From NCBI RefSeq assembly GCF_000143985.1, contig NC_014364.1, forward strand, positions 2,170,001-2,234,000: 64,000 nucleotides of DNA. The letters run 5' to 3'. A model generated the notes under the pieces. That model was given only the letters and a program-made list of their open reading frames with translations, did no database searches and had not been told where the DNA came from. Made by a program: the position numbers and the translations under genes. Each line of letters opens with the position of its first letter. The stretch's first letter is position 1. Shown piece after piece: positions 6,930 to 60,202 of the stretch. The DNA is from Sediminispirochaeta smaragdinae DSM 11293. GTDB lineage: Bacteria; Spirochaetota; Spirochaetia; DSM-16054; Sediminispirochaetaceae.

Positions 6930-9515
6930 ATGGCCTCGGAAACCCCCATGATGCAGCAATACCGGAGCCTCAAAGAGAGGCACCGGGATGCTGTTCTCTT
7001 TTTTCGCCTCGGTGACTTTTATGAGATGTTTGAACGGGATGCGGCAGAGGTATCGGCAATTCTCGGGCTGACCCTCACAAAGCGGAATGGGCTACCGATG
7101 TGTGGAATCCCCTACCATGCCGCCGGCACCTACATCCCCAGACTCCTTTGGGCCGGAAGAAAGATCGCCATCTGTGAACAGATCGCACTTCCCCAGGGAG
7201 GAAAGGGGATAGCGAAGCGGGAAGTGGTGGAAGTCATCACTCCAGGAACAGTTGTCGATGAAGATTTTCTTGACCGGGGAAGGAACAACTATCTTGCTTC
7301 CTTGGGGCAGATAGAAGGGGCTCTCTCTTTTTCTTATATTGATCTTTCCACTGGTGAGTTTGCGGCAACACTTCTTGGAAAGGAAAACCGCTTCGAAAAG
7401 CTGCGCAAAGAGCTTGCCAGGTTACAGCCCTCCGAGTTACTGGTTCAGGAAAGTCTGCTCGAAGAGGGACCGGAGACGGTCAGAATTCTGGAAGAACGGC
7501 AGATCTTGATAAACCGTTATCCCGACTGGTCCTATGACCTTGGTGACAGCGAAGCCCGCCTTCGCAGGCTTTTTGGTGTAACTAACCTTAAGGGCTTCGG
7601 CATCCTTCCTGATGACCATGCTATTTACGCCTGTGGCACACTTCTGGAGTATCTATCGGAAACGGCACATGACCATCTTCGCCACATAAGTTCGATAGTG
7701 CGTTACGAAGAGAGTGATTTTGTCGGTCTTGATGAATCAACTCAGCGGAATCTGGAAATCGTTTCAAATATGCGTGATGCCTCCAATGCGTATACACTTT
7801 TCCAGGTTTTGGACAAAACACGTACGGCTCCCGGTGCAAGAACCCTGAGAAGCAGGCTCCTTCATCCGCTTCGGGATATGAAGGCAATTACGCTCCGACT
7901 GGATAAGGTGGAAGAACTCTACAGAAACCAGATGATCCTTTCGGCACTGCGAAAAAAGCTTTCCGGAGTCCTTGATCTGGAACGGCTCTCGGCCAGAATC
8001 GCTCTTGGAAAGGCACATGCCAAAGACCTTGCGGCAGTCGCTTCCACGATCACCGTTATCCTCGAAATCGAGCAAGAGTTCGGAGAAATGAGGGTCCCCG
8101 GTTCGTGGATGTTGGCACAGGAGAACCGTTCCGCTGCCGAAGAGCTGGAAAAAGAACTACGCAGGGCAATCTGCGATGATCCCTCGGTACTATTGACCGA
8201 AGGTAATATGATACGAGAAGGCTACAGTGAGGAACTTGATCGCCTCAGGTTGCTAAAGCGAGATAGTCGCAAGGTTTTGGCGGACTATCTCGAAGATGAA
8301 AAGAACAGGAGTGGAATCGCCAACCTAAAAATCAAATATAATAAAATCATTGGACATTTTATTGAGGTCACAAAGGCAAATCTGTCACTCGTTCCCGATC
8401 ATTTTATCAGGCGGCAGTCCCTTGTAGGTGCGGAACGCTTTACTACCGAACGGCTGGGAGAGCTTGAGACGGAACTAAACAGTGCATCGGAAAAAATGAT
8501 CCAGTTGGAAAAAGAACTTTTCCTCTCTCTGCGAGAGTCCTGTGCCAGGCGTCTTCCCGTGCTTCACACCCTTGCCGAGTACATCTGCGATATCGATTTC
8601 TTTCAGGCCCTTGCCTATGCGGCAACCGTCCACGGTTATGTACGGCCGGACATTAATACCGGCAACGATATCGCCATACGGGAAGGACGTCATCCCGTTG
8701 TCGAGGCGGGACTCAACGCTGGGGAATTCATCCCGAATTCCATCGATATCGGGGCAAAGAAAAGCTTCGCATTGATAACAGGACCCAACATGGCCGGTAA
8801 ATCGACCTACCTCAGGCAGACGGCCCTCATTGTTCTGATGGCCCAGTGCGGTTCCTTCGTTCCTGCAATGGAAGCCACTATTGGTATCGTCGATAGAATT
8901 TTCTGTAGGGTCGGGGCCTCCGACAATCTTGCACGAGGAGAGTCGACCTTTCTTGTTGAAATGAATGAAACGGCCTATATACTCAGGACTGCGAGTGAGA
9001 AGAGCCTTGTTATCATGGATGAGGTCGGTCGAGGGACCAGCACGACCGACGGCCTTGCAATTGCATGGGCTGTTTCCGAAGCACTTATCGAACGAAAGAC
9101 AAAAACCCTTTTTGCAACCCATTTCCATGAACTAACCGAACTCCAACACGATTCGATACAAAAACTTCGACTTATGGTCAAGGAAGAGGGAGATCGGGTG
9201 ATCTTTTTAAAGAAGGTTGAAGAGGGGTGTGCCGCCGGTTCCTACGGTATCCATGTTGCTTCTCTTGCCGGTGTCCCGGATCCTGTTCTTTCCCGAGCCA
9301 GGCAGATTTTGGGAGAACTCGAACATAGGGATCGTCCGATTCCCAAAGATATGGTCCCTCAACGGAAATCACAGAAAAGTGATCTGCTTTTCAATGAAAA
9401 CGACTTGATCGAGAGCGAGATTATGAGTATCGATCTCGACAGCTTAACGCCGAAAAAGGCTCTTGATATACTCTATCGATGGAAAGAAGAGCTCGGTTCG
9501 GGAAGAATGAAGTAA
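6930..9515 (+). CDS. mutS: DNA mismatch repair protein MutS
   Basis: MutS recognises base mismatches and small loops and starts mismatch repair. The 861-residue protein has the mismatch-binding FYE motif (F30, E32) in GDFYEMF. It also has the connector and lever domains, an ATPase domain with Walker A GPNMAGKST (618-626), Walker B with the DEVGRGTSTTDG block, and an ATHFHEL switch motif. Length and order match MutS1. The ATG at 6930 has no obvious Shine-Dalgarno site, but the downstream TPMMQQY block aligns with the known N-terminus, so this start is right. The gene lies in the outer-membrane operon, as it does in other spirochaetes. No mutL is seen in the window. Confidence 0.97.
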   Translation: MASETPMMQQYRSLKERHRDAVLFFRLGDFYEMFERDAAEVSAILGLTLTKRNGLPMCGIPYHAAGTYIPRLLWAGRKIAICEQIALPQGGKGIAKREVVEVITPGTVVDEDFLDRGRNNYLASLGQIEGALSFSYIDLSTGEFAATLLGKENRFEKLRKELARLQPSELLVQESLLEEGPETVRILEERQILINRYPDWSYDLGDSEARLRRLFGVTNLKGFGILPDDHAIYACGTLLEYLSETAHDHLRHISSIVRYEESDFVGLDESTQRNLEIVSNMRDASNAYTLFQVLDKTRTAPGARTLRSRLLHPLRDMKAITLRLDKVEELYRNQMILSALRKKLSGVLDLERLSARIALGKAHAKDLAAVASTITVILEIEQEFGEMRVPGSWMLAQENRSAAEELEKELRRAICDDPSVLLTEGNMIREGYSEELDRLRLLKRDSRKVLADYLEDEKNRSGIANLKIKYNKIIGHFIEVTKANLSLVPDHFIRRQSLVGAERFTTERLGELETELNSASEKMIQLEKELFLSLRESCARRLPVLHTLAEYICDIDFFQALAYAATVHGYVRPDINTGNDIAIREGRHPVVEAGLNAGEFIPNSIDIGAKKSFALITGPNMAGKSTYLRQTALIVLMAQCGSFVPAMEATIGIVDRIFCRVGASDNLARGESTFLVEMNETAYILRTASEKSLVIMDEVGRGTSTTDGLAIAWAVSEALIERKTKTLFATHFHELTELQHDSIQKLRLMVKEEGDRVIFLKKVEEGCAAGSYGIHVASLAGVPDPVLSRARQILGELEHRDRPIPKDMVPQRKSQKSDLLFNENDLIESEIMSIDLDSLTPKKALDILYRWKEELGSGRMK

Positions 9516-9536
9516 TTTCTCTACTTTCTGCATATA

Positions 9537-10295
9537 GTGTATATGGACACTCTTCTTATCGAAGCCTTGCAGCTCTTGTTTCCGTCGCAATGTCTTCTCT
9601 GTGGAAGATCCTACACCCCTGATATCTTTCCACACCACGGTGGAGAACGATGGGCTCCCGTTCCTCTCTGCCGGACGTGCTTACAGGAGTTGGAACAGGA
9701 ATTACTTGACCAAGGCCAAGGGTGCAGTATCTGCGGAAGTCCCCTCGTCTCTGAGCAGAATATTTGTATGAGCTGCAGAAGACATTTTCCGTCTCTTCCG
9801 TCTTTTCGTTCCAATACCCCCCTTTTCCTTTATCGGGGAAAGGCAAAAGAGCTGCTTCGCTGGTATAAGTTCAGGAATCGGCGAGATCTTGCACCACTTT
9901 TTGCCTATCTTTTTGCCCAACGGGTCATAACACCATTTGGAATTCAGCTCACACTTGTTCCTGTTCCCTTTAGATCGGCAGGAAAGCGCAGTAGGGGCTG
10001 GGACCCTGTGGAAACGATCTGCCGCATCCTTTCCCATCACTATGGCTATAACGTGGCATATCTTCTCAAAAGACGTGGCAATCGACAGCAGAAAAAGATG
10101 ACCGCTGCCGAACGCAAGGTAAATATGCAAAAGGCAATTGTTATGAGGCGGCGGAGAAGACACCTTTCAGCCGAGTCGTATTATCTTATCATTGACGATG
10201 TTATGACAACCGGCGCAACGCTCCAGGCGTGTGCCGCGACTCTCAGAGATAACGGAGCAGAAAAAATCTCGGCAACGACCATAGTGGTGGATTGA
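9537..10295 (+). CDS. ComF-family phosphoribosyltransferase-like protein
   Basis: ComF-type proteins are linked to DNA uptake or to use of imported DNA; their exact reaction is unsettled. The 252-residue product has an N-terminal zinc-binding region with four CxxC pairs (CLLC, CRTC, CSIC, CMSC, between residues 17 and 80). Its C-terminal phosphoribosyltransferase domain carries the PRPP loop IDDVMTTGAT near residue 219. The start may be the GTG at 9537 or the ATG two codons later. It is the last gene of the tamB-mutS run; its stop codon overlaps the -35 box of the next promoter, so the next operon is separately controlled. Natural competence is not shown by anything else here. Confidence 0.85.
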   Translation: MYMDTLLIEALQLLFPSQCLLCGRSYTPDIFPHHGGERWAPVPLCRTCLQELEQELLDQGQGCSICGSPLVSEQNICMSCRRHFPSLPSFRSNTPLFLYRGKAKELLRWYKFRNRRDLAPLFAYLFAQRVITPFGIQLTLVPVPFRSAGKRSRGWDPVETICRILSHHYGYNVAYLLKRRGNRQQKKMTAAERKVNMQKAIVMRRRRRHLSAESYYLIIDDVMTTGATLQACAATLRDNGAEKISATTIVVD

Positions 10296-10320
10296 CTATT
10301 ATCATGTGTGCTGTTATCTT
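10292..10320 (+). promoter_or_regulatory. Sigma-70-type promoter for the rimP-nusA-infB operon
   Basis: TTGACT (10292-10297) and TATCTT (10315-10320) are separated by exactly 17 bases and together match the consensus well. The -35 box overlaps the stop codon of the upstream ComF gene. Transcription would begin near 10327, only about 22 bases before a terminator-like hairpin. The call is from sequence only. Confidence 0.65.
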
Positions 10321-10348
10321 ATATCTAACATTTCAGCATGCGGTCTGG

Positions 10349-10376
10349 AAGGAGTCGAAAACGACTCCTTTTTTAT
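10349..10376 (+). terminator. Rho-independent terminator/attenuator in the rimP leader
   Basis: A perfect 9-bp stem (10349-10357 with 10362-10370) closes an AAAA loop and runs directly into a T tract (six T, 10369-10374), the textbook intrinsic terminator form. It lies downstream of the 10292-10320 promoter and upstream of the probable rimP start. It would therefore stop read-through from comF and also attenuate the rimP operon. A leader terminator before rimP-nusA-infB is known in gammaproteobacteria (the rimP leader). An equivalent here would fit NusA-dependent feedback, which is inference. Confidence 0.8.
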
Positions 10377-10391
10377 TGCGGGAAAAAAGAC

Positions 10392-10865
10392 GTGGAATAC
10401 TTTTCAAAACATCAACAAGGCCCCCTTACCGGGGAGCTTGAGCCAATTATTGAAGGACTCGGCTATAAGACGGTAGAGGTTGCCGCAAAAAAAACCGGCT
10501 CACGCCATCATGTTTCCGTCATCATCAGTGGAAGAGACTCCGGTATAGGCTTGACAGACTGTGAAAAGGTGCATAAAGCCATTCTTCCCCGACTTGAAAT
10601 CCTCCTTGATGATAGGGATATCTATGTAGAAGTCTCATCACCAGGTATTTCAAGGAATCTGAAATGTGGTGCCGAATTTGGCATATTTGTTGGGTCGCTT
10701 GTGCGTCTCCTATTGGAGGGAGAAAACGAGTGGATTGTCGGACGAATCATGGAATCAGATGAACGAAAGGTTGTCATTGAAATGTCCGATGGAAAGAAAG
10801 AAGATTACTTGTACGACACGATACGCAAAGCAAAACTTGTGGATATACAGGAGGCAAAGAAATAG
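10392..10865 (+). CDS. rimP: Ribosome maturation factor RimP
   Basis: RimP helps mature the small ribosomal subunit. From the GTG at 10392 the product is 157 residues, close to the family length of about 150. It has the N-terminal alpha/beta domain (PIIEGLGYKTVEV, then VSVII and a DCEKVHKAI helix) and the conserved VEVSSPGISR block, followed by an SH3-like C-terminal barrel. An in-frame ATG at 10338 would place the terminator hairpin inside the gene and add a non-homologous basic tail, so I reject it. The stop codon is directly followed by the nusA start, as in most bacteria. Confidence 0.9.
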   Translation: MEYFSKHQQGPLTGELEPIIEGLGYKTVEVAAKKTGSRHHVSVIISGRDSGIGLTDCEKVHKAILPRLEILLDDRDIYVEVSSPGISRNLKCGAEFGIFVGSLVRLLLEGENEWIVGRIMESDERKVVIEMSDGKKEDYLYDTIRKAKLVDIQEAKK

Positions 10866-12356
10866 ATGGCCGCTGGTTTGGCAGAAGCAATCCGCTCCCT
10901 GGTTCAAGATCGGGGAATATCGGAAGAACTGGTAAGGAAAACCATTGAGGATTTTCTCCTTGCCGCTTATAAACGCAAATTTGGTACTACGGAGAATGCC
11001 GTTGTACGTTTTAGTGAGGATGGTAACGAGGTAGCGATTTTTGCTGCAAAAGAAATTGTCGAAAATGTTGAAGATCCTGTTACGGAAATGCCTCTAAAAG
11101 AGGCATTGACCTATAATGAAGAATGTGAAATCGGTGATGAGCTGCTTATTGAGATAAATCCGAAAGAGTTTGATCGTGTTGCCGTCCAGAGTGCAAAACA
11201 GAAAGCGAAACAAACATTACGGGAAATCCAGAAGGATACCCTCTATTCCGAATTCAAGGAAAAAGAGGGAGAGATGGTTATTGGTTATTATCAACGTGAA
11301 CGTAACGGCAATATCTTTGTCGATCTTGGTAAAATCGAGGGAATTCTTCCCCGACGCTACCAATCCCCTCGGGAGGTATATCGCCCCAATGATCGTATCA
11401 AGGCCCTTATTTACGAGGTAAGTAAATCCCCCTCTGGGCTCCAAATCGTTCTGTCGAGAACCCACACCGATTTTGTGAAGCGTATCTTTGAACTGGAAGT
11501 TCCGGAGGTATACGACAAAACCGTAGAGATCTTTAAAATTGTACGTGAGCCGGGATATCGGACCAAGATTGCTGTCTACTCAAACAGGGACGATGTAGAT
11601 CCCGTTGGTGCATGTGTCGGTATGAAAGGCGTGCGTATCCAGGCCGTGGTACGAGAGCTTGAAGGTGAAAAGATCGATATCCTGAAATACGACATTGATG
11701 CTCGCTCCTTCATTAAGAATGCACTCAGCCCAGCCGAGGTTCAAAACGTTGTCATCCTTGATGAGGCAAAACGTCAGGCTTTGGCCGTGGTGGAGGAGAA
11801 TCAGCTTTCTCTCGCCATCGGAAAGCAGGGCTTAAATGTGCGTCTTGCAAATCGTCTTGTCGACTGGAATATCGATGTAAAGACTATTGAGCAGTTTGAA
11901 GAGATGGATCTCTCCGCTGAGACAAAGAAGGAGCTAAATGCGCTCTTTAACGATGTTGAAGAGGATGATGAGAACGTCGAGGAGATCAGTCGTATTTCGG
12001 AGCTTCCGGGTATCAGCGAACGACTGTCGGAAATCCTCATGCAAAACGGCGTTGAACTTATCGAGACCTTGGTCGGGCTTTCGGGAGAGGATCTTTCAAG
12101 ACTGGAAGGCGTTACGGTACAGGATGTCGAAACGATACAAAACATTATTTCCGAAAATGTCGACATCATCGAGGAGCAGGAAGAGGAAGCCATTGCCCAG
12201 ACCGAGAGCCATGAGCACCTCGCCGAGGAAACATACGAGTGTCCCGAATGCGGACACCCGATTACCATAGATATGACCTCTTGCCCAAACTGCGGCGTAG
12301 GTTTAAGCTTTGAAGTCGAAGACGACAATGATGAAGACGAAGAAGAGGAGGAATAA
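10866..12356 (+). CDS. nusA: Transcription termination/antitermination factor NusA with C-terminal zinc ribbon
   Basis: NusA binds RNA polymerase and RNA and modulates pausing, termination and antitermination. The 496-residue protein has the polymerase-binding N-terminal domain (1-130), an S1 domain (about 135-200), and two KH domains (GMKG near 254; IGKQG near 320). A helix-hairpin-helix region follows at about 375-430 (SELPGISERL). Unlike E. coli NusA it then ends with a CPEC/CPNC pair (C459, C462, C473, C476) and a run of Asp/Glu. The four cysteines have zinc-ribbon spacing. What this tail binds is unknown. The gene directly abuts rimP and precedes infB, the standard order. Confidence 0.96.
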   Translation: MAAGLAEAIRSLVQDRGISEELVRKTIEDFLLAAYKRKFGTTENAVVRFSEDGNEVAIFAAKEIVENVEDPVTEMPLKEALTYNEECEIGDELLIEINPKEFDRVAVQSAKQKAKQTLREIQKDTLYSEFKEKEGEMVIGYYQRERNGNIFVDLGKIEGILPRRYQSPREVYRPNDRIKALIYEVSKSPSGLQIVLSRTHTDFVKRIFELEVPEVYDKTVEIFKIVREPGYRTKIAVYSNRDDVDPVGACVGMKGVRIQAVVRELEGEKIDILKYDIDARSFIKNALSPAEVQNVVILDEAKRQALAVVEENQLSLAIGKQGLNVRLANRLVDWNIDVKTIEQFEEMDLSAETKKELNALFNDVEEDDENVEEISRISELPGISERLSEILMQNGVELIETLVGLSGEDLSRLEGVTVQDVETIQNIISENVDIIEEQEEEAIAQTESHEHLAEETYECPECGHPITIDMTSCPNCGVGLSFEVEDDNDEDEEEEE

Positions 12357-48000: not shown

Positions 48001-50382
48001 ATGAAAACCGCAAGAAAGCGTTTACCATTTTTCGAAACCCATTTCTTCGGTTTTTTCATTGCGCTGCTTGTCGTTGTTTTTTTCGCACTTATTAATAATT
48101 ACACCTCGTTTTTCAGTAATATCGAAGATAAGGTCCTTGATCTGCATTTTCGTTACAAAGATGTCTACGAAAACAAAAGTAGACAGGAAGGGGTGTATGA
48201 AGTAGCCGAGAATCCGAATATCAATAAGGACATCCTTATTGTCGGCATCGACTTTCGTACCCTTAACCGGTTGGGCCGTTGGCCCTTTCCCCGTTATACC
48301 CATGCAGCGCTTTTAAACACCTTTTCGCGTATTCAGGACCAAAGCCAGCGGGAGCGGTCGGTCTTTCTGGATATCTTTTTCAACGAACCTGCGGACAATG
48401 CCATAGACGACGTTATTCTCCTTGAAAGCATGGGAGAAAACGGCAGGGTCTTTCTCGAGACTTTGATGGACGAGGTTCCGCCTCCGAAGGAAGATGCGAC
48501 AGGGCTTTTCGAACGACAAAACACCCTCATTCAAACCCACGGGGCAATTAATAATATCCAAGGTGATTGGAAGTCGATGATCAGCTTTCCGGGCCTCCAG
48601 CCTCCGTTGAGCCCTTACGGAAGAAAGGCCGCAGGATTCGGTCATGCAAATTACCTTAAAGATGCCGATGAGGTATTCAGGCGCCAACCTTTGATCGTAA
48701 AATCATCCCAACTGCTTGAGGAAATTCCACTCCAGAATATCACGCCGGGATTTTCTGTGGATGAGGATCACTTTCAGCGACTGGCGTGGACCGATGAGAC
48801 GGGGGGGCAACACAACATACCGTACCCCATCACCGAAAAAGTACTTGAAAAGATTTCTGCCGAGATCGATGCAAAATCACCAAAACGGGTAGTGGACAAC
48901 GATGGGGACGGAGAACCGGACGAGAGCTATTCCATCGTAAAACTTTATCAGGATCGTTTTCTGCCCTCTATAACCCTTTCCCTGGCGCTTGACTATTTCA
49001 ATAAGCGGATTGACGACATTGAGATTGTCCTCGGGAAACAGATTCATATTCCCCAGCCGCAGTACTTCGATGCGGAAAAAAATATCTGGGTTCCCTATCA
49101 AATGCTTCTTAAACCGGCTCTCTACGATACGGACGGGAATGAGGTCGAAGCTGCAGAAACAAAGGTTCTTCATGATATAAACATTCCGATAGACAGAGAC
49201 GGGAACATGCTGATCAACTTTATGGGCTTTCCCAGTTTTGCCACTACCGGATCACGTCAAACCTTCCCTGTACGTTCTTATTCCGCCTATGCCTCAAATC
49301 CCCCGGGACTTGACCCGGCAAAATGGCCGAGAACAAGGGCCCTTACCAATAAGATCGTCATGGTCGGAGCCTTTGCCCGCGGGATTGCCGACGATGAAAA
49401 GCCGACCCCCTTCGGCCTGATGTATGGTGTTGAGATCCATGCAAACGCCCTCAATACCATTCTCATGAATAAATTCATCCATAGCGTGCCCTTTTGGGTC
49501 AATCTACTGGTCTTGGCTGCAATGGTATTTCTGGTGAGTCTGCTCAGCTCCAGATTCTCGACAATCTGGGCCTTTATAGCCCTGCTCCTGCTGGTCGCAT
49601 CCCTCTTTATCACCGCTTCGATCCTTTTCGACCGCAGTGCCCTTCTTCTTGAATTCACCACACCGGCCCTTGCCTCGCTTTTTGCCTTTCTTTCCATTAT
49701 TGCCTACAGGGCCATGACGGAAGAGAAGGATAAACGGCGCATCAGATCGATGTTCGGAACCTATGTCAGTCCCAAGGTCGTCGACCAGATCCTTGCCAAT
49801 CCCCCCGAGCTCGGTGGGGTGGACAAAGAGCTGACCGTCTTTTTTTCCGATATACGAGGCTTCACCACCATCAGCGAAAGCATGACACCCCAGGAGCTGG
49901 TAAAAATCCTCAACCGCTACCTTACGGCCATGACCGATATTGTTCTGGAACACGAGGGGACCTTGGACAAGTACGAAGGTGATGCCATCATGTGTTTCTG
50001 GGGCGCTCCGGTATCTCAGAGCGACCATGCCCTACGGGCCTGCAAATGTGCGGTTCAGCAGCTTGAGGCCCTTAAAAAGCTGAATGCACAGCTGCCGGAA
50101 TCGCAGCGGATCGATATCGGGATAGGTATCAACTCGGGAATCATGACCGTCGGTAATATGGGAAGTACTCAGCGTATGGACTATACCCTTATCGGGGATA
50201 ACGTCAATCTGGGCGCACGGCTTGAGGGTACGAACAAAGCCTACCACACAAACATTATCATCAGCGAATACACCTACGGCCTCGTTAAGGACCACGTTAT
50301 TGCCCGTGAACTTGACAATATCAGGGTTAAGGGTAAAAACAAGCCGGTACTCATTTATGAACTCATTGATTATCTGGAGTAA
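48001..50382 (+). CDS. CHASE2-domain adenylate cyclase (class III)
   Basis: The 793-residue membrane protein has a first helix at about 18-40 and an extracytoplasmic CHASE2 domain (about 60-480). Three helices follow at about 498-570, then a class III nucleotide cyclase domain (about 605-785). Metal ligands are the Asp of FFSDIRGF (near 616) and the Asp of YEGDAIMCFWGAP. The Lys in DKYEGD and Asp in MDYTLIGDNVN suggest ATP rather than GTP as substrate. The sensor contains a calcium-loop-like DNDGDGEPDE at 299-308. It probably makes cAMP in response to an external signal. The next gene starts inside its last codons. Confidence 0.92.
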   Translation: MKTARKRLPFFETHFFGFFIALLVVVFFALINNYTSFFSNIEDKVLDLHFRYKDVYENKSRQEGVYEVAENPNINKDILIVGIDFRTLNRLGRWPFPRYTHAALLNTFSRIQDQSQRERSVFLDIFFNEPADNAIDDVILLESMGENGRVFLETLMDEVPPPKEDATGLFERQNTLIQTHGAINNIQGDWKSMISFPGLQPPLSPYGRKAAGFGHANYLKDADEVFRRQPLIVKSSQLLEEIPLQNITPGFSVDEDHFQRLAWTDETGGQHNIPYPITEKVLEKISAEIDAKSPKRVVDNDGDGEPDESYSIVKLYQDRFLPSITLSLALDYFNKRIDDIEIVLGKQIHIPQPQYFDAEKNIWVPYQMLLKPALYDTDGNEVEAAETKVLHDINIPIDRDGNMLINFMGFPSFATTGSRQTFPVRSYSAYASNPPGLDPAKWPRTRALTNKIVMVGAFARGIADDEKPTPFGLMYGVEIHANALNTILMNKFIHSVPFWVNLLVLAAMVFLVSLLSSRFSTIWAFIALLLLVASLFITASILFDRSALLLEFTTPALASLFAFLSIIAYRAMTEEKDKRRIRSMFGTYVSPKVVDQILANPPELGGVDKELTVFFSDIRGFTTISESMTPQELVKILNRYLTAMTDIVLEHEGTLDKYEGDAIMCFWGAPVSQSDHALRACKCAVQQLEALKKLNAQLPESQRIDIGIGINSGIMTVGNMGSTQRMDYTLIGDNVNLGARLEGTNKAYHTNIIISEYTYGLVKDHVIARELDNIRVKGKNKPVLIYELIDYLE

Positions 50383-51533: not shown

Positions 51534-53159
51534 TTGTTTAGATTAGTCATAGCAGATGATGAACATAGGGTTTGTCAGCTCATCCAAAATATAATTCCCT
51601 GGAATGATTACCAAGTCCAAGTTTCCGGTACGGCGTATAACGGGATCGATGCATTTCGGCTGATTCAGGAAGTTCAACCCGATATTGTGATAACAGACAT
51701 CCGTATGCCCGGATATGACGGGATAACCCTCATCGGTAAAAGTAAAGCACTCTATCCCGATATCAGTTTCATTATCGTGAGCGGTTACAGAGACTTCGAA
51801 TATGCACAAAGTGCCCTGAAGTTCGGGGCGGATGATTATCTTCTCAAGCCGATATCGGGTGAAGAAATAAAACGTATCATCATGAAGGTACTCGCCAAGA
51901 AAATGGAGCAGGAAGAAAAATATCAACATGAAAACAGGCTCCAGAGTGAACTTCTCAAAAGCAGGGAGACCTTACGAAAACAGTTTGCAAAGGACCTTAT
52001 CGATAGGGAATGCCGTGTTGATAGAGACGCCTTATCCGATATTCAGGATCGCTACCTTATTCGTTTCCACAGTCCCTACTTCCAAGTGATTATCGTTCGG
52101 CTGGACAATCTTGAGCCGTTGCAAGACTATGAACCCGATAGAATCATCGATACAATACGAGAAAAAGTTGAGATTGCCGCCTCTGCATGTTTAGGGGGCT
52201 TGGTTCATGACGTATTTTGTACCTTCACCAGTTTTAGCATTATCTACATCCTGAATACCAAAGAGAAGAACGGCCTATCCTATAGGGATGAAGAAGAGCT
52301 CTTTGAAGCAGCATCCCAGAAACTTACGGAATATGGCAAATGGAAGGTTTCCATCTGTATCGGTAGACCCGTTCACGCATTTGAGAGGCTTTCCGATAGT
52401 TATGCCGATGCACTTCTTGCATTACGACAACGTATTTTTCATGTAGGAAGAAAGATTTATCACTGGAACTATGTGTCCGATCTTGAAAAAGAACTTCTCA
52501 AGTTCGATCTCCCTGGTTTTGAAAAAAGAATTACCACCATATTAGGCAACGAAGATATCTCTCAGATAAAGAACGATCTTAAAGAGTTTTTCTCTTCGAC
52601 ACCGATTTTTCACCGCATATTCAACCCCGATACGCTTCAGTACCTGTGTACGTACGTAACGGACTCTGTTATCAAAAAGCTGCAAGCCATGGGCAGTGAT
52701 GAAGAGCCTGTCTTATCCGTTAGAAAAAAGGCAGGGTTCATACTTGACGTATCATGTAGCATTGAGCTTTTGTTCACTCGCCTGATTCATCTCTATGTCC
52801 AGGTACTTGAAGATACCCTTACCTCAAAAAGGATCCAGGCCTACAAGCCGATCAGAATAGCAATTGAATATATCGAAAAGCACCATGCCGAAAGCATCGA
52901 TTTGAAATTAGTTGCAAAAGAAGCGGGATTCAATCCCATCTATTTCAGTTCATTATTCAAAAAAGAGACTGGTATAAATTTCAAAGACTATATCCAGCAA
53001 AAGAGAATCGAAACGGCTAAGGAACTGCTTTTATCAAGCAACCAGACCATACTGGCAATCAGCGAGAAGGTCGGGTATAAGGATGTTCGGTATTTCAGTA
53101 AGATATTTACAAAAATAGTCGGTATCAAACCTCATATGTACCGAAAAGTCTATGGCTAA
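51534..53159 (+). CDS. Response regulator with AraC-type DNA-binding domain (YesN-like)
   Basis: The 541-residue protein has a receiver domain (1-120) with the acidic pocket ADDE, phospho-acceptor Asp55 in VITDIRMPG and Lys105 in LLKPIS. A middle region of about 300 residues follows, and the chain ends in two AraC helix-turn-helix motifs (about 440-541, with LKLVAKEAGFNPIYFSSLFK and ILAISEKVGYKDVRYFSKIF). This is the YesN layout that controls sugar uptake genes in Gram-positive bacteria and spirochaetes. The start is TTG at 51534 with a GGAGGGGG site. Its end overlaps the kinase gene by 8 bases. The likely targets are the transporter genes downstream. Confidence 0.93.
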   Translation: MFRLVIADDEHRVCQLIQNIIPWNDYQVQVSGTAYNGIDAFRLIQEVQPDIVITDIRMPGYDGITLIGKSKALYPDISFIIVSGYRDFEYAQSALKFGADDYLLKPISGEEIKRIIMKVLAKKMEQEEKYQHENRLQSELLKSRETLRKQFAKDLIDRECRVDRDALSDIQDRYLIRFHSPYFQVIIVRLDNLEPLQDYEPDRIIDTIREKVEIAASACLGGLVHDVFCTFTSFSIIYILNTKEKNGLSYRDEEELFEAASQKLTEYGKWKVSICIGRPVHAFERLSDSYADALLALRQRIFHVGRKIYHWNYVSDLEKELLKFDLPGFEKRITTILGNEDISQIKNDLKEFFSSTPIFHRIFNPDTLQYLCTYVTDSVIKKLQAMGSDEEPVLSVRKKAGFILDVSCSIELLFTRLIHLYVQVLEDTLTSKRIQAYKPIRIAIEYIEKHHAESIDLKLVAKEAGFNPIYFSSLFKKETGINFKDYIQQKRIETAKELLLSSNQTILAISEKVGYKDVRYFSKIFTKIVGIKPHMYRKVYG

Positions 53160-54222
53160 AGCACGTAGAGCCGCTAATCGAACCATCGCTGCCGCTTTAT
53201 TAGTTCATCTTTCGTGTATCTTGTTTCTTACACTTGTCCTGATTGCCTCCTTTATTTTCGATTTCTTTCATTGCGCGCTTGGTCTAAGCTTCGAAGTCCT
53301 GCTTATCGTATTATACCTCTACTGTCTTGCCTCTTTTATTAAACATGTGTATACACCGTTGAAAAAGGTCGAAGAGGCAATGGAGCAACTATCAAGAGAA
53401 GAAGACACCGACATTTTTCGGGCCTTTGAGATCGATTCCAATGATACAGGGGGAGCACTTTCAACTCACTTTGCCGAGCTTATACAACTGCTTAAAGAGT
53501 CTCTTAATCGGGAATATACGGCCGATATCCTTAAGAAAGAGGCTGAACTCAACGCCTTACAAAGCCAGATAAATCCGCACTTTCTGTATAATGTCTTGGA
53601 TGCCATCCGCGGACATGCCTTAACCGAGGGCGTTACGGAAATTGCCGATATGACGGAAGCCCTTTCAAAATTGTTTCGCTATAGCGTCAGCCATTGGGAA
53701 AGCGAGGTTACCCTTGACCGTGAACTGGTTAATGTGCAGAACTATTTTAAAATTCAGCAATACCGGTTCAACAACAAATTCGATTTACGCATACTGATAG
53801 AAGATAACGAAGAGAATACCCTCTCTTGCTATATTCCAAAACTAACACTTCAACCCATTATTGAAAATGCGATCTATCATGGGCTTGAAATGAAAATGGG
53901 CAGGGGATTGGTAACGATACGAACCAAACTGACGGAAAAACTACTCTTAATCGAAATTAGCGATGATGGGGTAGGAGTCGAGCCCGGATCGCTTGAGAAG
54001 ATAAATAATTCCTTTAAAGAATGGAATACCATCAAAATAAAAGATAAAGAAACAGGCGGCAGTGGGATCGCCCTTACAAATGTGAATAGTCGTATCAAGA
54101 TGATGTATGGAGAAGAGTATGGACTCTATATGTATAGCACCCAGAATATAGGATCAATGATAGAAATTCTGCTTCCAATTCGCGGGCAGGAGGAAAAAGA
54201 AAGGAAAGAGCGTGGCGGGTGA
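53152..54222 (+). CDS. YesM-family sensor histidine kinase without extracytoplasmic sensor domain
   Basis: The 356-residue kinase has two membrane helices (about 11-38 and 43-66) joined by only about five residues, so no external domain exists. A linker and the His_kinase domain follow, with the phospho-acceptor His143 in INPHFLYN. The ATPase domain has the N box IIENAIYHG and the G-box region SDDGVGV plus GSGIALTNV. YesM kinases usually have about 570 residues with a large periplasmic sensor; this one lacks it, so the input must come from the membrane or cytoplasm, perhaps from the adjacent transporter. The next gene overlaps by 11 bases. Confidence 0.92.
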   Translation: MAKARRAANRTIAAALLVHLSCILFLTLVLIASFIFDFFHCALGLSFEVLLIVLYLYCLASFIKHVYTPLKKVEEAMEQLSREEDTDIFRAFEIDSNDTGGALSTHFAELIQLLKESLNREYTADILKKEAELNALQSQINPHFLYNVLDAIRGHALTEGVTEIADMTEALSKLFRYSVSHWESEVTLDRELVNVQNYFKIQQYRFNNKFDLRILIEDNEENTLSCYIPKLTLQPIIENAIYHGLEMKMGRGLVTIRTKLTEKLLLIEISDDGVGVEPGSLEKINNSFKEWNTIKIKDKETGGSGIALTNVNSRIKMMYGEEYGLYMYSTQNIGSMIEILLPIRGQEEKERKERGG

Positions 54223-55684
54223 ATTATTACGAATCAGAGAACTCACGACAGGTCGTTTTCACGGCTCAGCTTTGCATGAATTCCGATTACAAATCTTCGA
54301 TCAAGAACTTTTTGGCCTTGTAGGGCTAAACGGCTCGGGTAAGAGCACTCTTGCCGGGATTTTCGCAGGAGAAATTCCCGTAAAGCAGGGTATGCTTTTT
54401 TTTGATGGGAACAAATACGATTGGACTGTACAGAAGATTTCTCGAACGTTTTTTGAGCGTGTGGGGCTTTATGTTGTTCGAAATGAAACACGCCTCATAG
54501 GCAATCTTAATATTGCCGAAAATATGTCCATTTCTTTTACACCGCATCTACGAGACATATGGAAAAATCCTGGTAAACAGGAAAAAGTGGTCACCGCAGT
54601 CCTCCATGAGTTTGTACCGACACTTAAGCCTTACGAGAAGGGATGTACGCTTCCACTTGCCGTTCATTGGGAACTCGGAATGCTAAAAGCCTATATGAAT
54701 GGTGCAAAACTTATCATACTCGACAGAATTTTTGAATTTTGTAGTAAGAGCGAACAACATGAACTTTTCACCTTGATACATAGACTGAATCAGAAGGGCA
54801 CAAGCTTTCTCATTACCTATAATAAAGTTGCTCCTATTCTTGAAACATGTGACAGGGTTGCCGTGGTACGGGACGGTACACTATCTGCGATCATCCATAA
54901 GGACGATTACGATCCAAAACTGGTGGCACTTCATTTGCTTATCGGTCAGGATTATATCGGCCGGGAGGCTGTTAGAAAAGCGGACGACAAAACGGAAAAA
55001 AAACCTCTTATGGAAATTCGTAATCTATGTGCAGGTGTTGAATTGCAAAATTTTAGCTTTACTCTTTATAAAGAGGAGATCCTTGGAATTTCTGACCCGG
55101 TACAGGAAAAAACCACAGCGCTCTTACGTGTGTTGAATGGAAGCAAAACTCCGGAAAAAGGAGAGATATACGTACATGGCAAGCCTGTTGTTTTCGGAAG
55201 CGAACATCATGCACTTCGCTATGGCATCGGTATTGTTTCCGAAAAATTTTTCGACAACCTTTTCTTTCGTGATCTGTCTACAGGTGATAACCTCATACTT
55301 TCTGTCGCAAAAAGAGCTTCTCGTTTTTTGGGCTATTTTCCTTCCATGATGGAGCAGTATTTCAGAAGAAGATATCCCACGGAAATAGGTATTCCGGGGC
55401 AACTTGCGGAAAGGCCGGTAAAATTTCTCGAACAGGATTTGCAATTCATTCTTGCATTGCATATGAGAATCCTTAGCGGTGCAAAGGTATTTCTCCTGGA
55501 AAACCCGGTACGTAGTGCCGACCTGGTAACCAGGAATATGGTATATCAAAAGATAGATTCACTCAGAAAGAAAAAGATGGGAGTCATTTTTATTTCTGCG
55601 GACTATTCTGAGCTCGATGGTTTTTGCGATAGGATTATTCAATGCGACAGTCAAGGGATAATAGGAGGTGATAAGAGGCCATGA
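54212..55684 (+). CDS. Degenerate double-domain ABC ATPase (pseudo-ATPase) of the RbsA family
   Basis: The 490-residue protein has the length and two-domain layout of RbsA/MglA ATPases. In domain 1 Walker A is intact (GLNGSGKST, 38-46). The Q-loop reads RNET (90-93), the signature LPLAV (147-151), Walker B ends LDRIF (D171 kept, catalytic Glu replaced by R172), and the switch His is replaced by Asn204. In domain 2 the P-loop position reads SDPVQEKTT, the signature FLEQD, and Walker B LLENP. It could bind a nucleotide in one site but should not hydrolyse ATP. The frame is intact with no stop or frameshift, so it is a maintained pseudoenzyme and not debris. It lies between kinase and permease, overlapping both, which suggests a regulatory part. 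Confidence 0.85.
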   Translation: MAGELLRIRELTTGRFHGSALHEFRLQIFDQELFGLVGLNGSGKSTLAGIFAGEIPVKQGMLFFDGNKYDWTVQKISRTFFERVGLYVVRNETRLIGNLNIAENMSISFTPHLRDIWKNPGKQEKVVTAVLHEFVPTLKPYEKGCTLPLAVHWELGMLKAYMNGAKLIILDRIFEFCSKSEQHELFTLIHRLNQKGTSFLITYNKVAPILETCDRVAVVRDGTLSAIIHKDDYDPKLVALHLLIGQDYIGREAVRKADDKTEKKPLMEIRNLCAGVELQNFSFTLYKEEILGISDPVQEKTTALLRVLNGSKTPEKGEIYVHGKPVVFGSEHHALRYGIGIVSEKFFDNLFFRDLSTGDNLILSVAKRASRFLGYFPSMMEQYFRRRYPTEIGIPGQLAERPVKFLEQDLQFILALHMRILSGAKVFLLENPVRSADLVTRNMVYQKIDSLRKKKMGVIFISADYSELDGFCDRIIQCDSQGIIGGDKRP

Positions 55685-56634
55685 AAAAAATCTCACGACT
55701 ATTACACCATAATATTCTTCTTATCTTCCTGATCCTTGCCGTTGAGCTGCTATTTCTAAGGCTATCACTGCCTCGATTTTTTTCCTTGGGAACACTTTTG
55801 AGTTTTGGAAGGCAAACCGCTATTACAGCCATTCTGGCTATTGGTATGGGAATTGTTCTTATCAGCGGCGGTATCGATCTTTCCCTGGGTGCGATTGTTT
55901 CTATGATAGGAATGGTAGCGGCAACCTTTATGGTTCGCCTCAACCTACCCATTCCCATCGTCGTACTTTCCTGTATTCTTTTAGGGGGCCTTCTTGGAGC
56001 CGTAAACGGTTTTATCTGTGCCAAAGTAAGAATCCATCCCTTTATTCTTACGACTGCATCGGCAGTTATCTATCGAGGCGCTGCAAATATTCTAAGCAAT
56101 GGAATGCCCATATACGGGCTTCCCGGGAATTTCCTACAGATCGACAAATATCATCTTTTCGGCATACCGGTATCGGTATTAATACTTCTTATGTGCCTTC
56201 TGATGGGAAACTATCTACTAAAAAAAACCTACCTCGGAAAGTATATATATGCTATTGGACTCGACGAAAAAAGCGCGGAATATGCCGGCATAAATTCCAG
56301 ACAAATAAAGATCATTGTGTATTGTATCTCCGGCTTTTTCTACGGCATTGCTAGTATTCTACTTTTAACAAGGATAGGTTCCGCGCAACCGACAGCCATG
56401 AACGGAATTGAACTGGATGTTCTGGTTGCAGCCGCCATTGGCGGCATCGGGTTTAAAGGAGGGAGGGGCCACCTGCTTAACATTATACTCGGAGTATTTG
56501 TCATGGAAATTTTTGGTGACACCCTTATTGTTTTTAACGTTGGGGAATATTATCGGAGTATTTTTAAAGGGATTGTGCTTCTCATTGCACTCTTTGCAGA
56601 TGGAGCCCTCCGAAACGATAGAAATATCAGCTAA
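55681..56634 (+). CDS. ABC transporter permease, RbsC/AraH family (first)
   Basis: The 317-residue permease has 8-10 hydrophobic helices and the family motifs SGGIDLSLGAIVSM near residue 60 and AAAIGGIGFKGGRG near 250, where the ATPase-coupling loop of simple-sugar importers lies. It starts inside the end of the degenerate ATPase (ATGA overlap) with an AGGAGGTGATAAGAGG ribosome site, so both are made in fixed ratio. A second, different permease follows two genes later. Whether it pairs with the degenerate ATPase, with the ordinary one, or forms a mixed dimer cannot be told. Confidence 0.9.
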   Translation: MKKISRLLHHNILLIFLILAVELLFLRLSLPRFFSLGTLLSFGRQTAITAILAIGMGIVLISGGIDLSLGAIVSMIGMVAATFMVRLNLPIPIVVLSCILLGGLLGAVNGFICAKVRIHPFILTTASAVIYRGAANILSNGMPIYGLPGNFLQIDKYHLFGIPVSVLILLMCLLMGNYLLKKTYLGKYIYAIGLDEKSAEYAGINSRQIKIIVYCISGFFYGIASILLLTRIGSAQPTAMNGIELDVLVAAAIGGIGFKGGRGHLLNIILGVFVMEIFGDTLIVFNVGEYYRSIFKGIVLLIALFADGALRNDRNIS

Positions 56635-56683
56635 TTACCATCTTTTTCTTAATTTCATCACCATCAATCTATAATCTGTCACA

Positions 56684-56712
56684 TTGCGGGACAAATTTTG
56701 CGATGCTATCAT
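56684..56712 (+). promoter_or_regulatory. Internal promoter before the ordinary ABC ATPase gene
   Basis: TTGCGG (56684-56689) and TATCAT (56707-56712) are 17 bases apart, with a predicted start near 56719 and the GTG start codon at 56746. A TGTC/GACA inverted pair (56677-56680, 56690-56693) brackets the -35 box, and TTGCG recurs at 56698. These are possible operator halves for the AraC-type regulator, which is speculative. The 111-base gap is by far the largest inside this locus. Confidence 0.5.
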
Positions 56713-56745
56713 CGTAATTGAAGAAAATCCGGAAAGGGGTTTATC

Positions 56746-58272
56746 GTGTCCGATCCTATTCTCGAAATGAAAAACATCACGAAAAGTTTCTCAGGTGTCA
56801 AGGTCTTGGACAATGTGCAATTGACCGTCATGCCCGCTGAGGTACATGCACTCATGGGGGAGAACGGGGCAGGAAAATCAACACTCATGAATATTCTCCG
56901 GGGGATATATCAACCTGATGGTGGTGATATCTTTTTAGAAGGGAAAAAGATCATTAATCATAATCCGAAAGAGGCCACGGAACATAGAATCTCAATGATT
57001 CATCAGGAACTTCATCCCATTTTGGATATGAATGTTGCCGAAAACATCTTCCTCGGTAGAGAAATAAAGAGGGGTACCGATGGGATTTGCAGCATTGTTA
57101 ATAAAAAGAGAATGAAGGAAGAGGCCCAAAAGCTTTTTGATGTGATAGGAATAGCGATCAATCCCTCGATCCTCATGCGTAATCTCAGCGTGGCCCAGTG
57201 TCAACTTGTAGAAATTGTTAAGGCAATTTCCATCTCTGCAAAAATAGTCATTATGGATGAACCGACATCGGCCTTAACAGAAAAGGAAGTCGACCTTCTT
57301 TTCAAGCAGATAGACAAACTCAGATCGGGTGGAGTTTCGGTGATTTATATCTCTCACAAGATGGATGAGATATTTCGCGTTGCCGACTCCATAACGGTCC
57401 TCAGGGATGGCCAATTTATTGGTAGTGATAAAGTAGGAAATTTAGATAAGAACAATCTTATTAAGATGATGGTAGGAAGAGAACTTACCGAAATATTTCC
57501 GAAAGCAGAGGCACGTATCGGGGAGGTTGTTCTTGAAGCTCGGCACTATACTTGGGAGAACAAGGTGAAAAATGTCAGCTTCTCACTGCGCCGTGGCGAA
57601 ATATTAGGGATAGCAGGTCTAGTCGGTGCGGGTAGAAGCGAGTTGGTTGAAACGCTTTTTGGGGTTCATCCCAATTATGATGGCAAGTTGTATATCGAAG
57701 GGAAGCATGTCGACATCAGAAAAACCGGCGACGCCATTGTTCATAAGATTGCTTTGATCACAGAAGATAGAAAACAGACGGGTTTAAACCTTTCGGCTTC
57801 CATCGAACAGAATATTACGCTTGTGTCGTTAGAACAGCTTTTTCCGCATGGCATTATCAACAAAAAAAAGGAAGCATTGGTTACGGAAAAAAGTATGCAA
57901 CGGCTCGGAGTAAAGGCCGGTTCAAGAAGTGTAAAAACCGTTTCGTTAAGTGGAGGAAATCAACAAAAGGTAGTCATAGCAAAGTGGTTACTTGCAGAAC
58001 CGGAGATAATTATCATGGACGAACCGACCAGAGGTATCGATGTCGGTGCCAAACGAGATATCTATTTGCTTTTGGGAGAACTTGTTCAAGCCGGTAAGGC
58101 TGTATTGATGATCTCGTCTGAGATCCCCGAAATTATGGGTGTTGCAGATCGTATTCTTGTTATGGCCGAAGGACGAATTACCGGAGAACTTGATCGCAAA
58201 GATTTCTCTCAAGAGAAGATTATGTATTTTGCTTCACAATTCGACAAAGGAAATGAGAATGAAGAAAATTAG
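56746..58272 (+). CDS. Simple-sugar ABC transporter ATPase (RbsA/MglA family), catalytically intact
   Basis: The 508-residue protein drives sugar import by ATP hydrolysis. Domain 1 is complete: Walker A GENGAGKST, Q-loop IHQELHP, signature LSVAQ, Walker B IVIMDEPTSAL and the His of YISHKMDEI. Domain 2 has the family-typical altered P-loop GLVGAGRSE, a good signature LSGGNQQK and Walker B IIIMDEPTRGID. It starts with GTG after a GGAAAGGGG site. The next gene overlaps its last 20 bases. Together with the permease and binding protein that follow it makes a complete importer. Confidence 0.95.
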   Translation: MSDPILEMKNITKSFSGVKVLDNVQLTVMPAEVHALMGENGAGKSTLMNILRGIYQPDGGDIFLEGKKIINHNPKEATEHRISMIHQELHPILDMNVAENIFLGREIKRGTDGICSIVNKKRMKEEAQKLFDVIGIAINPSILMRNLSVAQCQLVEIVKAISISAKIVIMDEPTSALTEKEVDLLFKQIDKLRSGGVSVIYISHKMDEIFRVADSITVLRDGQFIGSDKVGNLDKNNLIKMMVGRELTEIFPKAEARIGEVVLEARHYTWENKVKNVSFSLRRGEILGIAGLVGAGRSELVETLFGVHPNYDGKLYIEGKHVDIRKTGDAIVHKIALITEDRKQTGLNLSASIEQNITLVSLEQLFPHGIINKKKEALVTEKSMQRLGVKAGSRSVKTVSLSGGNQQKVVIAKWLLAEPEIIIMDEPTRGIDVGAKRDIYLLLGELVQAGKAVLMISSEIPEIMGVADRILVMAEGRITGELDRKDFSQEKIMYFASQFDKGNENEEN

Positions 58273-59221
58273 GAATTTTATGTCGCTACACTCAATGCGG
58301 GAGTTGGGAATTGTTTTTGTTTTTGCTGCAATCCTCCTGATTCTCATAATCCTTTCGCCAAATGCTTTTGCGAGGCCTGCCAATTTAATCAATATCATCA
58401 AGCAGGCTTCGATAAACGGCATTCTTGCCATGGGCATGATGTTTGTCATCATTAGCGACGGTATAGACCTTTCCGTGGGATCCATTGTTGCCCTGACAGG
58501 GGTCGTTTCTGCAAGTTTTGCACATCCCGGCGAGTATCCACTTATCGTTCCCATTATCCTCGCCCTTAGCATCGGTCTTTTTGTCGGATGGCTTAATGGA
58601 GTAGGGGTTGCGGTTGGAAATATCCCGGCCTTCATTGTTACATTAGGAATGATGACCATGATACGGGGAGTTGCCTTAATTGTAAGCAGAGGAGCCCCTG
58701 TCTTCGGCGTTACCAAAGCCTATGAATTTATTGCAGGTGGCTTTCTTTTTGATCGTATTCCGCTTCTTGTGGTCTATTTTACCATTATTACCTTAATAAG
58801 CGCATATATACTTACAAAGACGGTTTTCGGCAGAAGGGTCTATGCCGTCGGTGGTAACGATATCTCAGCGGCTTTTTCCGGAATTAACGTAAAGAAAATT
58901 CGCATCTCAGTGTACATGATTTCAGGACTTCTGGCAGGATTTGCCGGCTTGCTTCTTGCATCGAGAACCGTTTCTGGAAATCCGACAGCTGGACAATCTT
59001 ACGAACTTGATGCAATAGCAGCCGCTGTTATCGGTGGTGTAAGCATGTCCGGCGGTTCAGGAAAATGGTACGGCACGGTTATCGGTGCGCTCTTAATCGC
59101 TGTGATAGGAAATGGCCTTGATATTCTGAATGTGTCATCTCATTACCAATTGGTCATCAAGGGGGCAATCATCATTTCCGCCGTCCTTCTTGATGTAAAA
59201 GGAAAGGAAAAAGCGGCATAA
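58253..59221 (+). CDS. ABC transporter permease, RbsC family (second)
   Basis: From the ATG at 58253 the product is 322 residues, with a short basic start, about 9 membrane helices and the family motifs SDGIDLSVGSIVALTG and AAVIGGVSMSGGSG. The frame is open upstream to 58139 but only inside the ATPase gene. ATPase and permease overlap by 20 bases. It is the likely main permease for the ordinary ATPase. Confidence 0.93.
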   Translation: MRMKKIRNFMSLHSMRELGIVFVFAAILLILIILSPNAFARPANLINIIKQASINGILAMGMMFVIISDGIDLSVGSIVALTGVVSASFAHPGEYPLIVPIILALSIGLFVGWLNGVGVAVGNIPAFIVTLGMMTMIRGVALIVSRGAPVFGVTKAYEFIAGGFLFDRIPLLVVYFTIITLISAYILTKTVFGRRVYAVGGNDISAAFSGINVKKIRISVYMISGLLAGFAGLLLASRTVSGNPTAGQSYELDAIAAAVIGGVSMSGGSGKWYGTVIGALLIAVIGNGLDILNVSSHYQLVIKGAIIISAVLLDVKGKEKAA

Positions 59222-59260: not shown

Positions 59261-60202
59261 ATGAGAAAAGTCTTACTAATGGCAATGGGCATCATGTTGA
59301 TGACATCAAGTCTCTTGTTTGCCGCAGGATCGGCAGAAGATGGGGATGCAAAGCCAGAGAGATATGCGCTTATGATGAGTCACATGACAAATGCCTTTAC
59401 CATGGAATTATCAGATGCCGTAAAATCAAAGGCAAAAGAGTTGGGTGTCGATCTTACCGTCTTCGACGGCGGCCAGGATGTTTCAAAGCAAATTAGCCAA
59501 GTAGAATCGGCAATAAACCAAGGCTATGCCGGCATTCTCATTGAGCCGGCTTCGGTAGATGGAATCAAACCAGCGGCAGAAGCGGCAAAGAAAGCAGGGA
59601 TTCCTTTAATTACCGTTAATCAGCGGATCACCGATCAGGAACTTGCCAGTGCCTATGTTGGTGCAAATCCGGTTGAAGGTGGCGAACTTGAAATGCGTAC
59701 CGCTGCAGAAGCAATTGGGGGAAAGGGGAAAGTTGCTTTCCTTCTTGGACCTCTTGGTTCGGATGCACAGATAGGCAGAACTCAAGGATACTACAATGTT
59801 CTGAAAGAGTATCCGGGAATCGAAGTCGCATACGAACAGAGCGCAAATTGGCGGACAGACGAGGCCTTAAAGCTCGTAGAGAATTGGTTACAGACTGGTG
59901 TGGAACTAAAGGCAATTGTGGCCAACAACGACGGTATGGCCCTTGGAGCCCTTAAGGCTGTAGAAGATGCAAAAATGCTTGATAAAATTAAAATCTATGG
60001 TCTTGATGCAACACCTGATGCACTTGCTGCGGTTAAAGAAGGTCGTTTGTCTGCAACAATTTCACAGAGCACCACAGAACAAGGCCTGGTCGCCATGGAA
60101 ACCATTGTCAAAATAGTCAATGGGGAGAAGGTTCCAGCCGAGATAATCGTCGGCCACACCTTATTGGATAAAAAGGCAGTCGACCAAATGGCAAAAAACT
60201 AA
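59261..60202 (+). CDS. Sugar-binding protein of the ABC transporter (RbsB-like)
   Basis: The 313-residue protein has a signal peptide (about 1-22, ending LLFAAG) without a lipobox Cys, so it is probably a soluble periplasmic protein. The type I periplasmic binding fold is clear (YALMMSHMTNAFTMELSDAVK, then DLTVFDGGQD, GILIEPASVDG, KAIVANNDGMALGALKAVED and YGLDATPDALAAV). It belongs to the ribose/galactose-binding cluster. The exact sugar cannot be assigned from sequence. A strong GAGGAGG site precedes it. It is the only binding protein of the locus and may serve both permeases. Confidence 0.93.
   Translation: MRKVLLMAMGIMLMTSSLLFAAGSAEDGDAKPERYALMMSHMTNAFTMELSDAVKSKAKELGVDLTVFDGGQDVSKQISQVESAINQGYAGILIEPASVDGIKPAAEAAKKAGIPLITVNQRITDQELASAYVGANPVEGGELEMRTAAEAIGGKGKVAFLLGPLGSDAQIGRTQGYYNVLKEYPGIEVAYEQSANWRTDEALKLVENWLQTGVELKAIVANNDGMALGALKAVEDAKMLDKIKIYGLDATPDALAAVKEGRLSATISQSTTEQGLVAMETIVKIVNGEKVPAEIIVGHTLLDKKAVDQMAKN

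Follow-up and report, generated by a model that had tools for sequence, protein, structure and literature searches.

Two-component systems that borrow parts of ABC transporters for signal perception have been described in two settings. The histidine kinase BceS has no sensing domain and reads the transporter BceAB (PMC10314905). In the CuaD-CuaSR and XylFII-LytS systems, a transporter-like binding protein serves as sugar sensor (PMC10384115). We describe here a gene cassette of the spirochaete Sediminispirochaeta smaragdinae DSM 11293 that differs from both, because it uses an inactive motor subunit. With the Bce-type modules (BceAB-BceRS) it shares a kinase devoid of a sensor domain, ABC machinery as the proposed sensor and a transporter as output (PMC10314905). 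However, BceAB itself acts as the sensor and is an active transporter for antibiotic resistance, whereas here a separate, inactive importer-type ATPase is combined with a YesM-type kinase. A Bce-type system relies on a BceB-type permease with a large external domain and on an active BceA-type ATPase, while the permeases of our locus are of the RbsC type (BPD_transp_2) and the linked ATPase is inactive by motif. In Bce-type modules the transporter is also bound to the kinase and needed for signalling. With XylFII-LytS-YesN and CuaD-CuaSR the cassette has in common a kinase, a regulator, a transporter-derived third component and, as we propose, control over a sugar ABC transporter (PMC10384115). 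Their third component is an external binding protein that docks on a large external domain of the kinase; here it is a relative of cytosolic-type ATPases, and the kinase has no external domain. We found no prior description of such a cassette in a limited search of the open-access literature, in line with the first-pass annotation of this DNA, which knew of no described simple-sugar system of this design. The inactive protein, termed pseudo-ATPase in the following, probably has a signalling role not described before, namely to inform the cell when the real transporter should be made.

Gene order and junction repeats of the cassette

The window, i.e. the whole stretch of 64,000 nucleotides that was analysed, contains the cassette on its forward strand. 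The first gene encodes a YesN-type response regulator (51534-53159) with a receiver and an AraC-type HTH (Pfam Response_reg, HTH_18), followed by the YesM-type histidine kinase (53152-54222) with His_kinase (PF06580) and HATPase_c domains. This domain composition is that of YesM/YesN two-component systems in general. The kinase has 356 aa and, judged by hydropathy, two TM segments joined by a loop of about 12 aa. Downstream lie the pseudo-ATPase (54212-55684), the RbsC-like permease PERM1 (55681-56634; BPD_transp_2), an ordinary RbsA-type ATPase (56746-58272), a second RbsC-like permease, PERM2 (58253-59221; start codon inferred), and an RbsB-like periplasmic binding protein (59261-60202; Peripla_BP_4). 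The pseudo-ATPase gene shares 11 nt with the kinase gene (54212-54222) and 4 nt with the permease gene (55681-55684); that both ends overlap had been noticed in the first-pass annotation. Upstream of the cassette, 48001-50382 encodes a membrane protein that, judged by eye, appears to combine a CHASE2-type sensor with an adenylate cyclase-like domain.

Two distant orthologous loci retain all seven genes in the order YesN-YesM-pseudo-ATPase-PERM1-ATPase-PERM2-binding protein. The shorter order YesN-YesM-pseudo-ATPase, together with transporter genes, recurs in the mapped loci, with the position of YesN conserved in L016, L017, L136, L108 and others. A permease of the PERM1 type beside the pseudo-ATPase is found in the window's clade only; in the other clades the cassette leads directly into the ATPase or binding-protein gene of the transporter, and most clades have one permease per operon. 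The earlier view of a pseudo-ATPase set between kinase and sugar permease therefore describes a general arrangement on the kinase side (38 of 39 family members, see below), whereas the permease flank is specific to the window's clade. Since PERM1 is confined to this clade, a universal sensory pair of pseudo-ATPase and PERM1 is ruled out. PERM1 is about 60% identical to its orthologues, compared to 84% for PERM2, and its divergence rate resembles that of the sensory genes. It is not a degenerate permease, because 20 of the 22 best conserved permease columns are kept. One PERM1 loop carries a conserved GLDE[KR][ST]AEY where other RbsC-type permeases mostly show GxN, and the pseudo-ATPase might dock at this loop.

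In all four loci of the window's clade, PERM1 and the ATPase gene are separated by a gap with a conserved block composed of a direct repeat with 21 bp spacing and an element resembling an extended -10. The candidate YesN operator of the window reads TCTTAATTTCATCAC / TCTATAATCTGTCAC, then ATTGCG (56647-56688, forward strand), and the candidate extended -10 of the transporter promoter, a consensus reading of the aligned upstream regions, is TGCTATCAT (56706-56714, forward strand). The second repeat half with its ATTGCG tail is unique in the whole genome at up to 3 mismatches. Repeat strength reaches 13/15 in L016 (1 of 200 shuffles as good) and 12/15 in L017 (0 of 200); in the window the repeat is weak by itself (9/15, with 83 of 200 shuffles as good), so that the case for it is made by conservation and by the related loci. 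A different pair occupies the same junction in the large clade introduced below, namely AAAGAATnnACCCCT twice at 20-22 bp, with scores of 16-23 out of 26 at almost every locus; for random stretches of the genome the mean was 13.9 and the maximum 17, a control that is unmatched for AT-rich clostridia and is set against a consensus partly read from the scored loci. No direct repeats above shuffles were found before YesN. The junction repeats are compatible with control of the transporter half by an AraC-type regulator, and the protein binding there is presumably YesN.

The pseudo-ATPase and its family

The pseudo-ATPase gene starts with GTG and encodes 490 aa without any internal stop. The reference for its motifs was an alignment to 79 ordinary RbsA proteins. 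The Q-loop Gln, which is residue 87 in the ordinary ATPase of the window, is conserved to 100% in them, and so are Glu172 and His204. In half 1 of the pseudo-ATPase the canonical Q-loop Gln is replaced by N91, the catalytic Glu by R172 and the switch His by N204, and the first signature reads LPLAVHW compared to LSVAQCQ in the window's ordinary ATPase. The Walker A of this half, GLNGSGKST (residues 38-46, 54323-54349), is the sole intact nucleotide-binding motif and is invariant in four orthologues. In half 2 the former Walker A has become DPVQEKTTA (residues 295-303, 55094-55120), LEQDLQFI stands for LSGGNQQK and ENPVRSAD for DEPTRGID. Position 295 is Asp in 92% of the 39 pseudo-ATPases described below and an invariant Gly in the 79 canonical proteins; Asp295 is thus a mark of the family. 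From the motif set of an active RbsA-type ATPase (Walker A, Q-loop, signature, Walker B with Glu, switch His) the pseudo-ATPase has thus kept the half-1 Walker A only, while the ordinary ATPase downstream has all motifs. The first-pass annotation had described exactly this: a protein of full RbsA length with an unbroken frame, a half 1 reduced to a perfect Walker A, a half 2 stripped of nearly all motifs and an intact ATPase nearby. Its residue numbers agree with the alignment.

Profile models convey the same picture. Pfam detects one ABC_tran domain with 63.6 bits in the pseudo-ATPase, compared to 174.5 bits in two stretches of the ordinary ATPase. The NCBIfam models AraG, RbsA and MglA match over the full length, all below their curated cut-offs (586-850 bits), and the best sugar ATPase score is 155.5 bits against a cut-off of 689. 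An AF2 model computed with 21 relatives (pLDDT 83, pTM 0.64) has a complete tandem-NBD fold, and among solved structures the DppD chains of peptide importers come nearest (TM 0.70-0.74). The pseudo-ATPase therefore resembles the tandem ABC ATPases of monosaccharide importers, RbsA, MglA and XylG, which have about 500 aa, in length, fold and full-length model match, but differs from them in the missing Q-loop Gln, signature, catalytic Glu and switch His, in scores far below cut-off and in forming a separate clade.

In a search of 198 genomes of this class, later widened to 395, a clear orthologue is present in four: this genome, a sister species (95% identity) and two genomes from two other genera of another family (55 and 52%). 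The remaining matches there are ordinary RbsA proteins with less than 30% identity. All four orthologues share GLNGSGKST, AVHW in the signature, LDRI-EFC in Walker B, ITYNK at the switch His and DPV in the half-2 Walker A. Comparison with the sister species gives a dN/dS of 0.122 (95% 0.076-0.181), beside 0.114 for YesM, 0.165 for YesN and 0.081 for the ordinary ATPase. A second pseudo-ATPase copy in this genome has 0.138. The check for purifying selection called for in the first-pass annotation hence came out positive, and the replaced motifs are not the result of chance decay, because they are the same in orthologues of 52-55% identity and the dN/dS is 0.122.

A scan of genome contigs recovered only the known orthologues and ordinary RbsA proteins; the wider family emerged from a motif table of 130 RbsA-like proteins. 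It contained two further degenerate proteins of the same length, from this genome and from a Clostridiales genome, and in both cases YesN and a short YesM kinase immediately precede the gene. With a profile of these degenerate proteins, more members were identified in spirochaetes and in the family and class of the Clostridiales genome. In a leave-one-out test, 21 members score at least 393 bits and ordinary RbsA proteins reach at most 341. Above this gap are hits in 11 of 357 spirochaete-class genomes, with one or two copies, and in 12 of 371 genomes of the clostridial class. After removal of duplicates 39 pseudo-ATPases from spirochaetes and Clostridia remained, the clostridial family being, as we take it, Lachnospiraceae. 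In a tree computed without the motif columns, a branch with SH-aLRT 98 sets all 39 apart. A single origin is likely on these alignments, although the three groups that they form may be drawn together in part by their long branches: the window's clade (4 members) and a clostridial clade (5), which both retain Walker A, and a large mixed clade (30) with Walker A degraded in the members inspected. The transporter ATPases of these loci mostly fall into three separate clades of ordinary RbsA that match the three pseudo-ATPase groups. The large clade includes the second copy of this genome (L136: 5710-7176, minus strand; about 2832712-2834190 of the genome), which has no Walker A at all and is part of a second, independent cassette with YesN, a short YesM, ATPase, permease and binding protein (genome 2827000-2839000). 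Paralogues in this genome were read from stretches of it. The proposal that ATP is bound without hydrolysis could still hold for the window's clade and for one of the clostridial clades, whereas the degraded Walker A of the largest clade rules out ATP binding as a family-wide property. Nucleotide dependence either differs between the clades or is irrelevant.

Linkage to YesM kinases without a sensor domain

A YesM-type kinase ends directly upstream on the same strand in 38 of the 39 pseudo-ATPase loci, but in only 1 of 190 ordinary RbsA loci (Fisher p 4e-41). The search profile made no use of neighbours, so that no selection effect enters this count, in which related loci are not independent. 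Conservation beside YesM/YesN genes, on which the first-pass annotation had staked its reading, is therefore strict. In the lone exception (L192, 1468-2955) the gene upstream of the pseudo-ATPase is ileS; this contig might be chimeric or rearranged. In L159 (1-1500) the kinase gene upstream is split over frames, by a sequencing frameshift or a recent loss, and the pseudo-ATPase is still open. The kinases share their history with the pseudo-ATPases: the YesM tree has the same three subfamilies, and distances in the two families are correlated with a Mantel r of 0.947, a value that 0 of 5000 permutations reached.

All intact linked kinases measured have two hydrophobic segments and a loop of 3-14 aa in a hydropathy scan. 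The window's kinase is thus of the intramembrane-sensing type, with two TM segments, a very short loop and no sensor domain. Of the eight YesM-type kinases of this genome, the two that are linked to a pseudo-ATPase are the shortest, with open frames of 367 and 350 codons compared to 505-659 codons in the six unlinked ones. Among the five unlinked kinases that were read, four carry external segments of 144-280 aa and one was read without a first TM segment. Compared with these ordinary YesM kinases, the linked kinases lack the usual sensor.

Proposed function, alternatives and origin

We consider it rather likely that the pseudo-ATPase is a dedicated third component of the YesN-YesM system, which couples the state of the transporter or its permease to the sensor-less kinase and so controls the adjacent monosaccharide transporter. 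The protein would descend from a monosaccharide importer ATPase that lost its hydrolysis motifs and kept the complete tandem-NBD fold. We infer that, in the manner of an ATPase, it would dock on a permease of the RbsC type, which is PERM1 in the window and the transporter's own permease in other clades, contact the membrane-embedded kinase and relay to it the state of permease and binding protein. Phosphorylated YesN would then bind the direct repeat before the ATPase-permease-binding-protein genes, and the real transporter would be turned up. As the kinase is devoid of an external sensor domain, such docking and relay seems the most likely arrangement, and it is supported by linkage, sensor-less kinases, congruent trees, dN/dS, gene order, repeats, fold and the precedents of BceS, CuaD and XylFII. 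Against it speaks that most clades have a single permease, for which a docked pseudo-ATPase would compete with the real ATPase. The uneven retention of Walker A among the clades and the weak repeat of the window also count against it. The regulatory subunit of the first-pass annotation is well supported by the linkage contrast, tree congruence, selection, the sensor-less kinases and the candidate operator, whereas its ATP-binding and permease parts had to be corrected.

Linkage and co-evolution are with the kinase, and PERM1 is absent outside the window's clade; both would suit a cytosolic scaffold, or a ligand sensor of the kinase (for nucleotide, sugar phosphate or the kinase's own domains), that works without permease contact. 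The membrane part of the kinase is small, so its input may indeed be cytosolic. However, the retained tandem-NBD shape exceeds the needs of a scaffold, and the cassette adjoins RbsC/RbsB-type transporter genes in loci with readable flanks, which makes this explanation unlikely. RbsA length and fold combined with absent hydrolysis motifs would also be expected of a dominant-inactive subunit that occupies the permease and throttles transport, and in most clades the operon has one permease to compete for. Kinase linkage would then reflect co-regulation only, which is insufficient to account for a kinase tree that mirrors the pseudo-ATPase tree and for the sensor-less kinase; we regard this possibility as improbable.

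The perfect half-1 Walker A and the well-preserved PERM1 could point to a still active ATPase with unusual motifs that forms a second transporter with PERM1. This is highly improbable, given that three residues found in every one of the 79 ordinary RbsA proteins are absent, both signatures are gone and even Walker A is degraded in the largest clade. Loss of catalytic motifs might finally indicate a decaying pseudogene or an assembly artefact, but all 39 frames are open, free of the frameshifts and stops that would have spoken against a maintained gene, and with a dN/dS of 0.12 and identical replacements in distant orthologues the chance of this is negligible; a pseudogene is ruled out.

One cassette bears on the origin of the pseudo-ATPases. 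The only ATPase with ordinary motifs behind a YesM kinase, including a strong half-2 Walker A, is that of L167/L223. In L223, YesN (7252-8883), YesM (8940-10118, with a 26-aa loop) and ATPase (10072-11523) face a divergent operon of binding protein, permease and ATPase. In the ATPase tree this protein forms the sister lineage of the pseudo-ATPases, and its kinase takes the corresponding position among the kinases, both trees being rooted for drawing only. The simplest reading of these sequences would be that an extra active ATPase joined the kinase first and lost catalysis later, with L223 as a possible ancestral state; this order is a lead, since no further such cassette with an intact ATPase was among the top matches in 200 genomes. 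More tentatively, at somewhat less than even confidence, we propose that these cassettes represent a novel class of three-component sugar sensor: a dead importer ATPase on a permease would relay the conformational state to a sensor-less YesM kinase, and the class would have evolved from an active second ATPase (the L223 state) and later dispensed with nucleotide binding in its largest branch. If so, bacterial sugar importers donated their motor subunit, and not only their binding protein, to signal transduction, and the input to YesM kinases without sensor domains would be explained. The intact, early-branching cassette makes the order of linkage first and loss of catalysis later testable. Pseudo-ATPases are easily mistaken for transporter ATPases because of their full-length model matches, and the motif set together with the linkage lets annotators separate them. 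Among the ATPase reading frames of L011-L015, several RbsA-like proteins carry GENGSGKS, and in their half 2 LDGP substitutes for DEP; these are perhaps a half-inactive transporter family.
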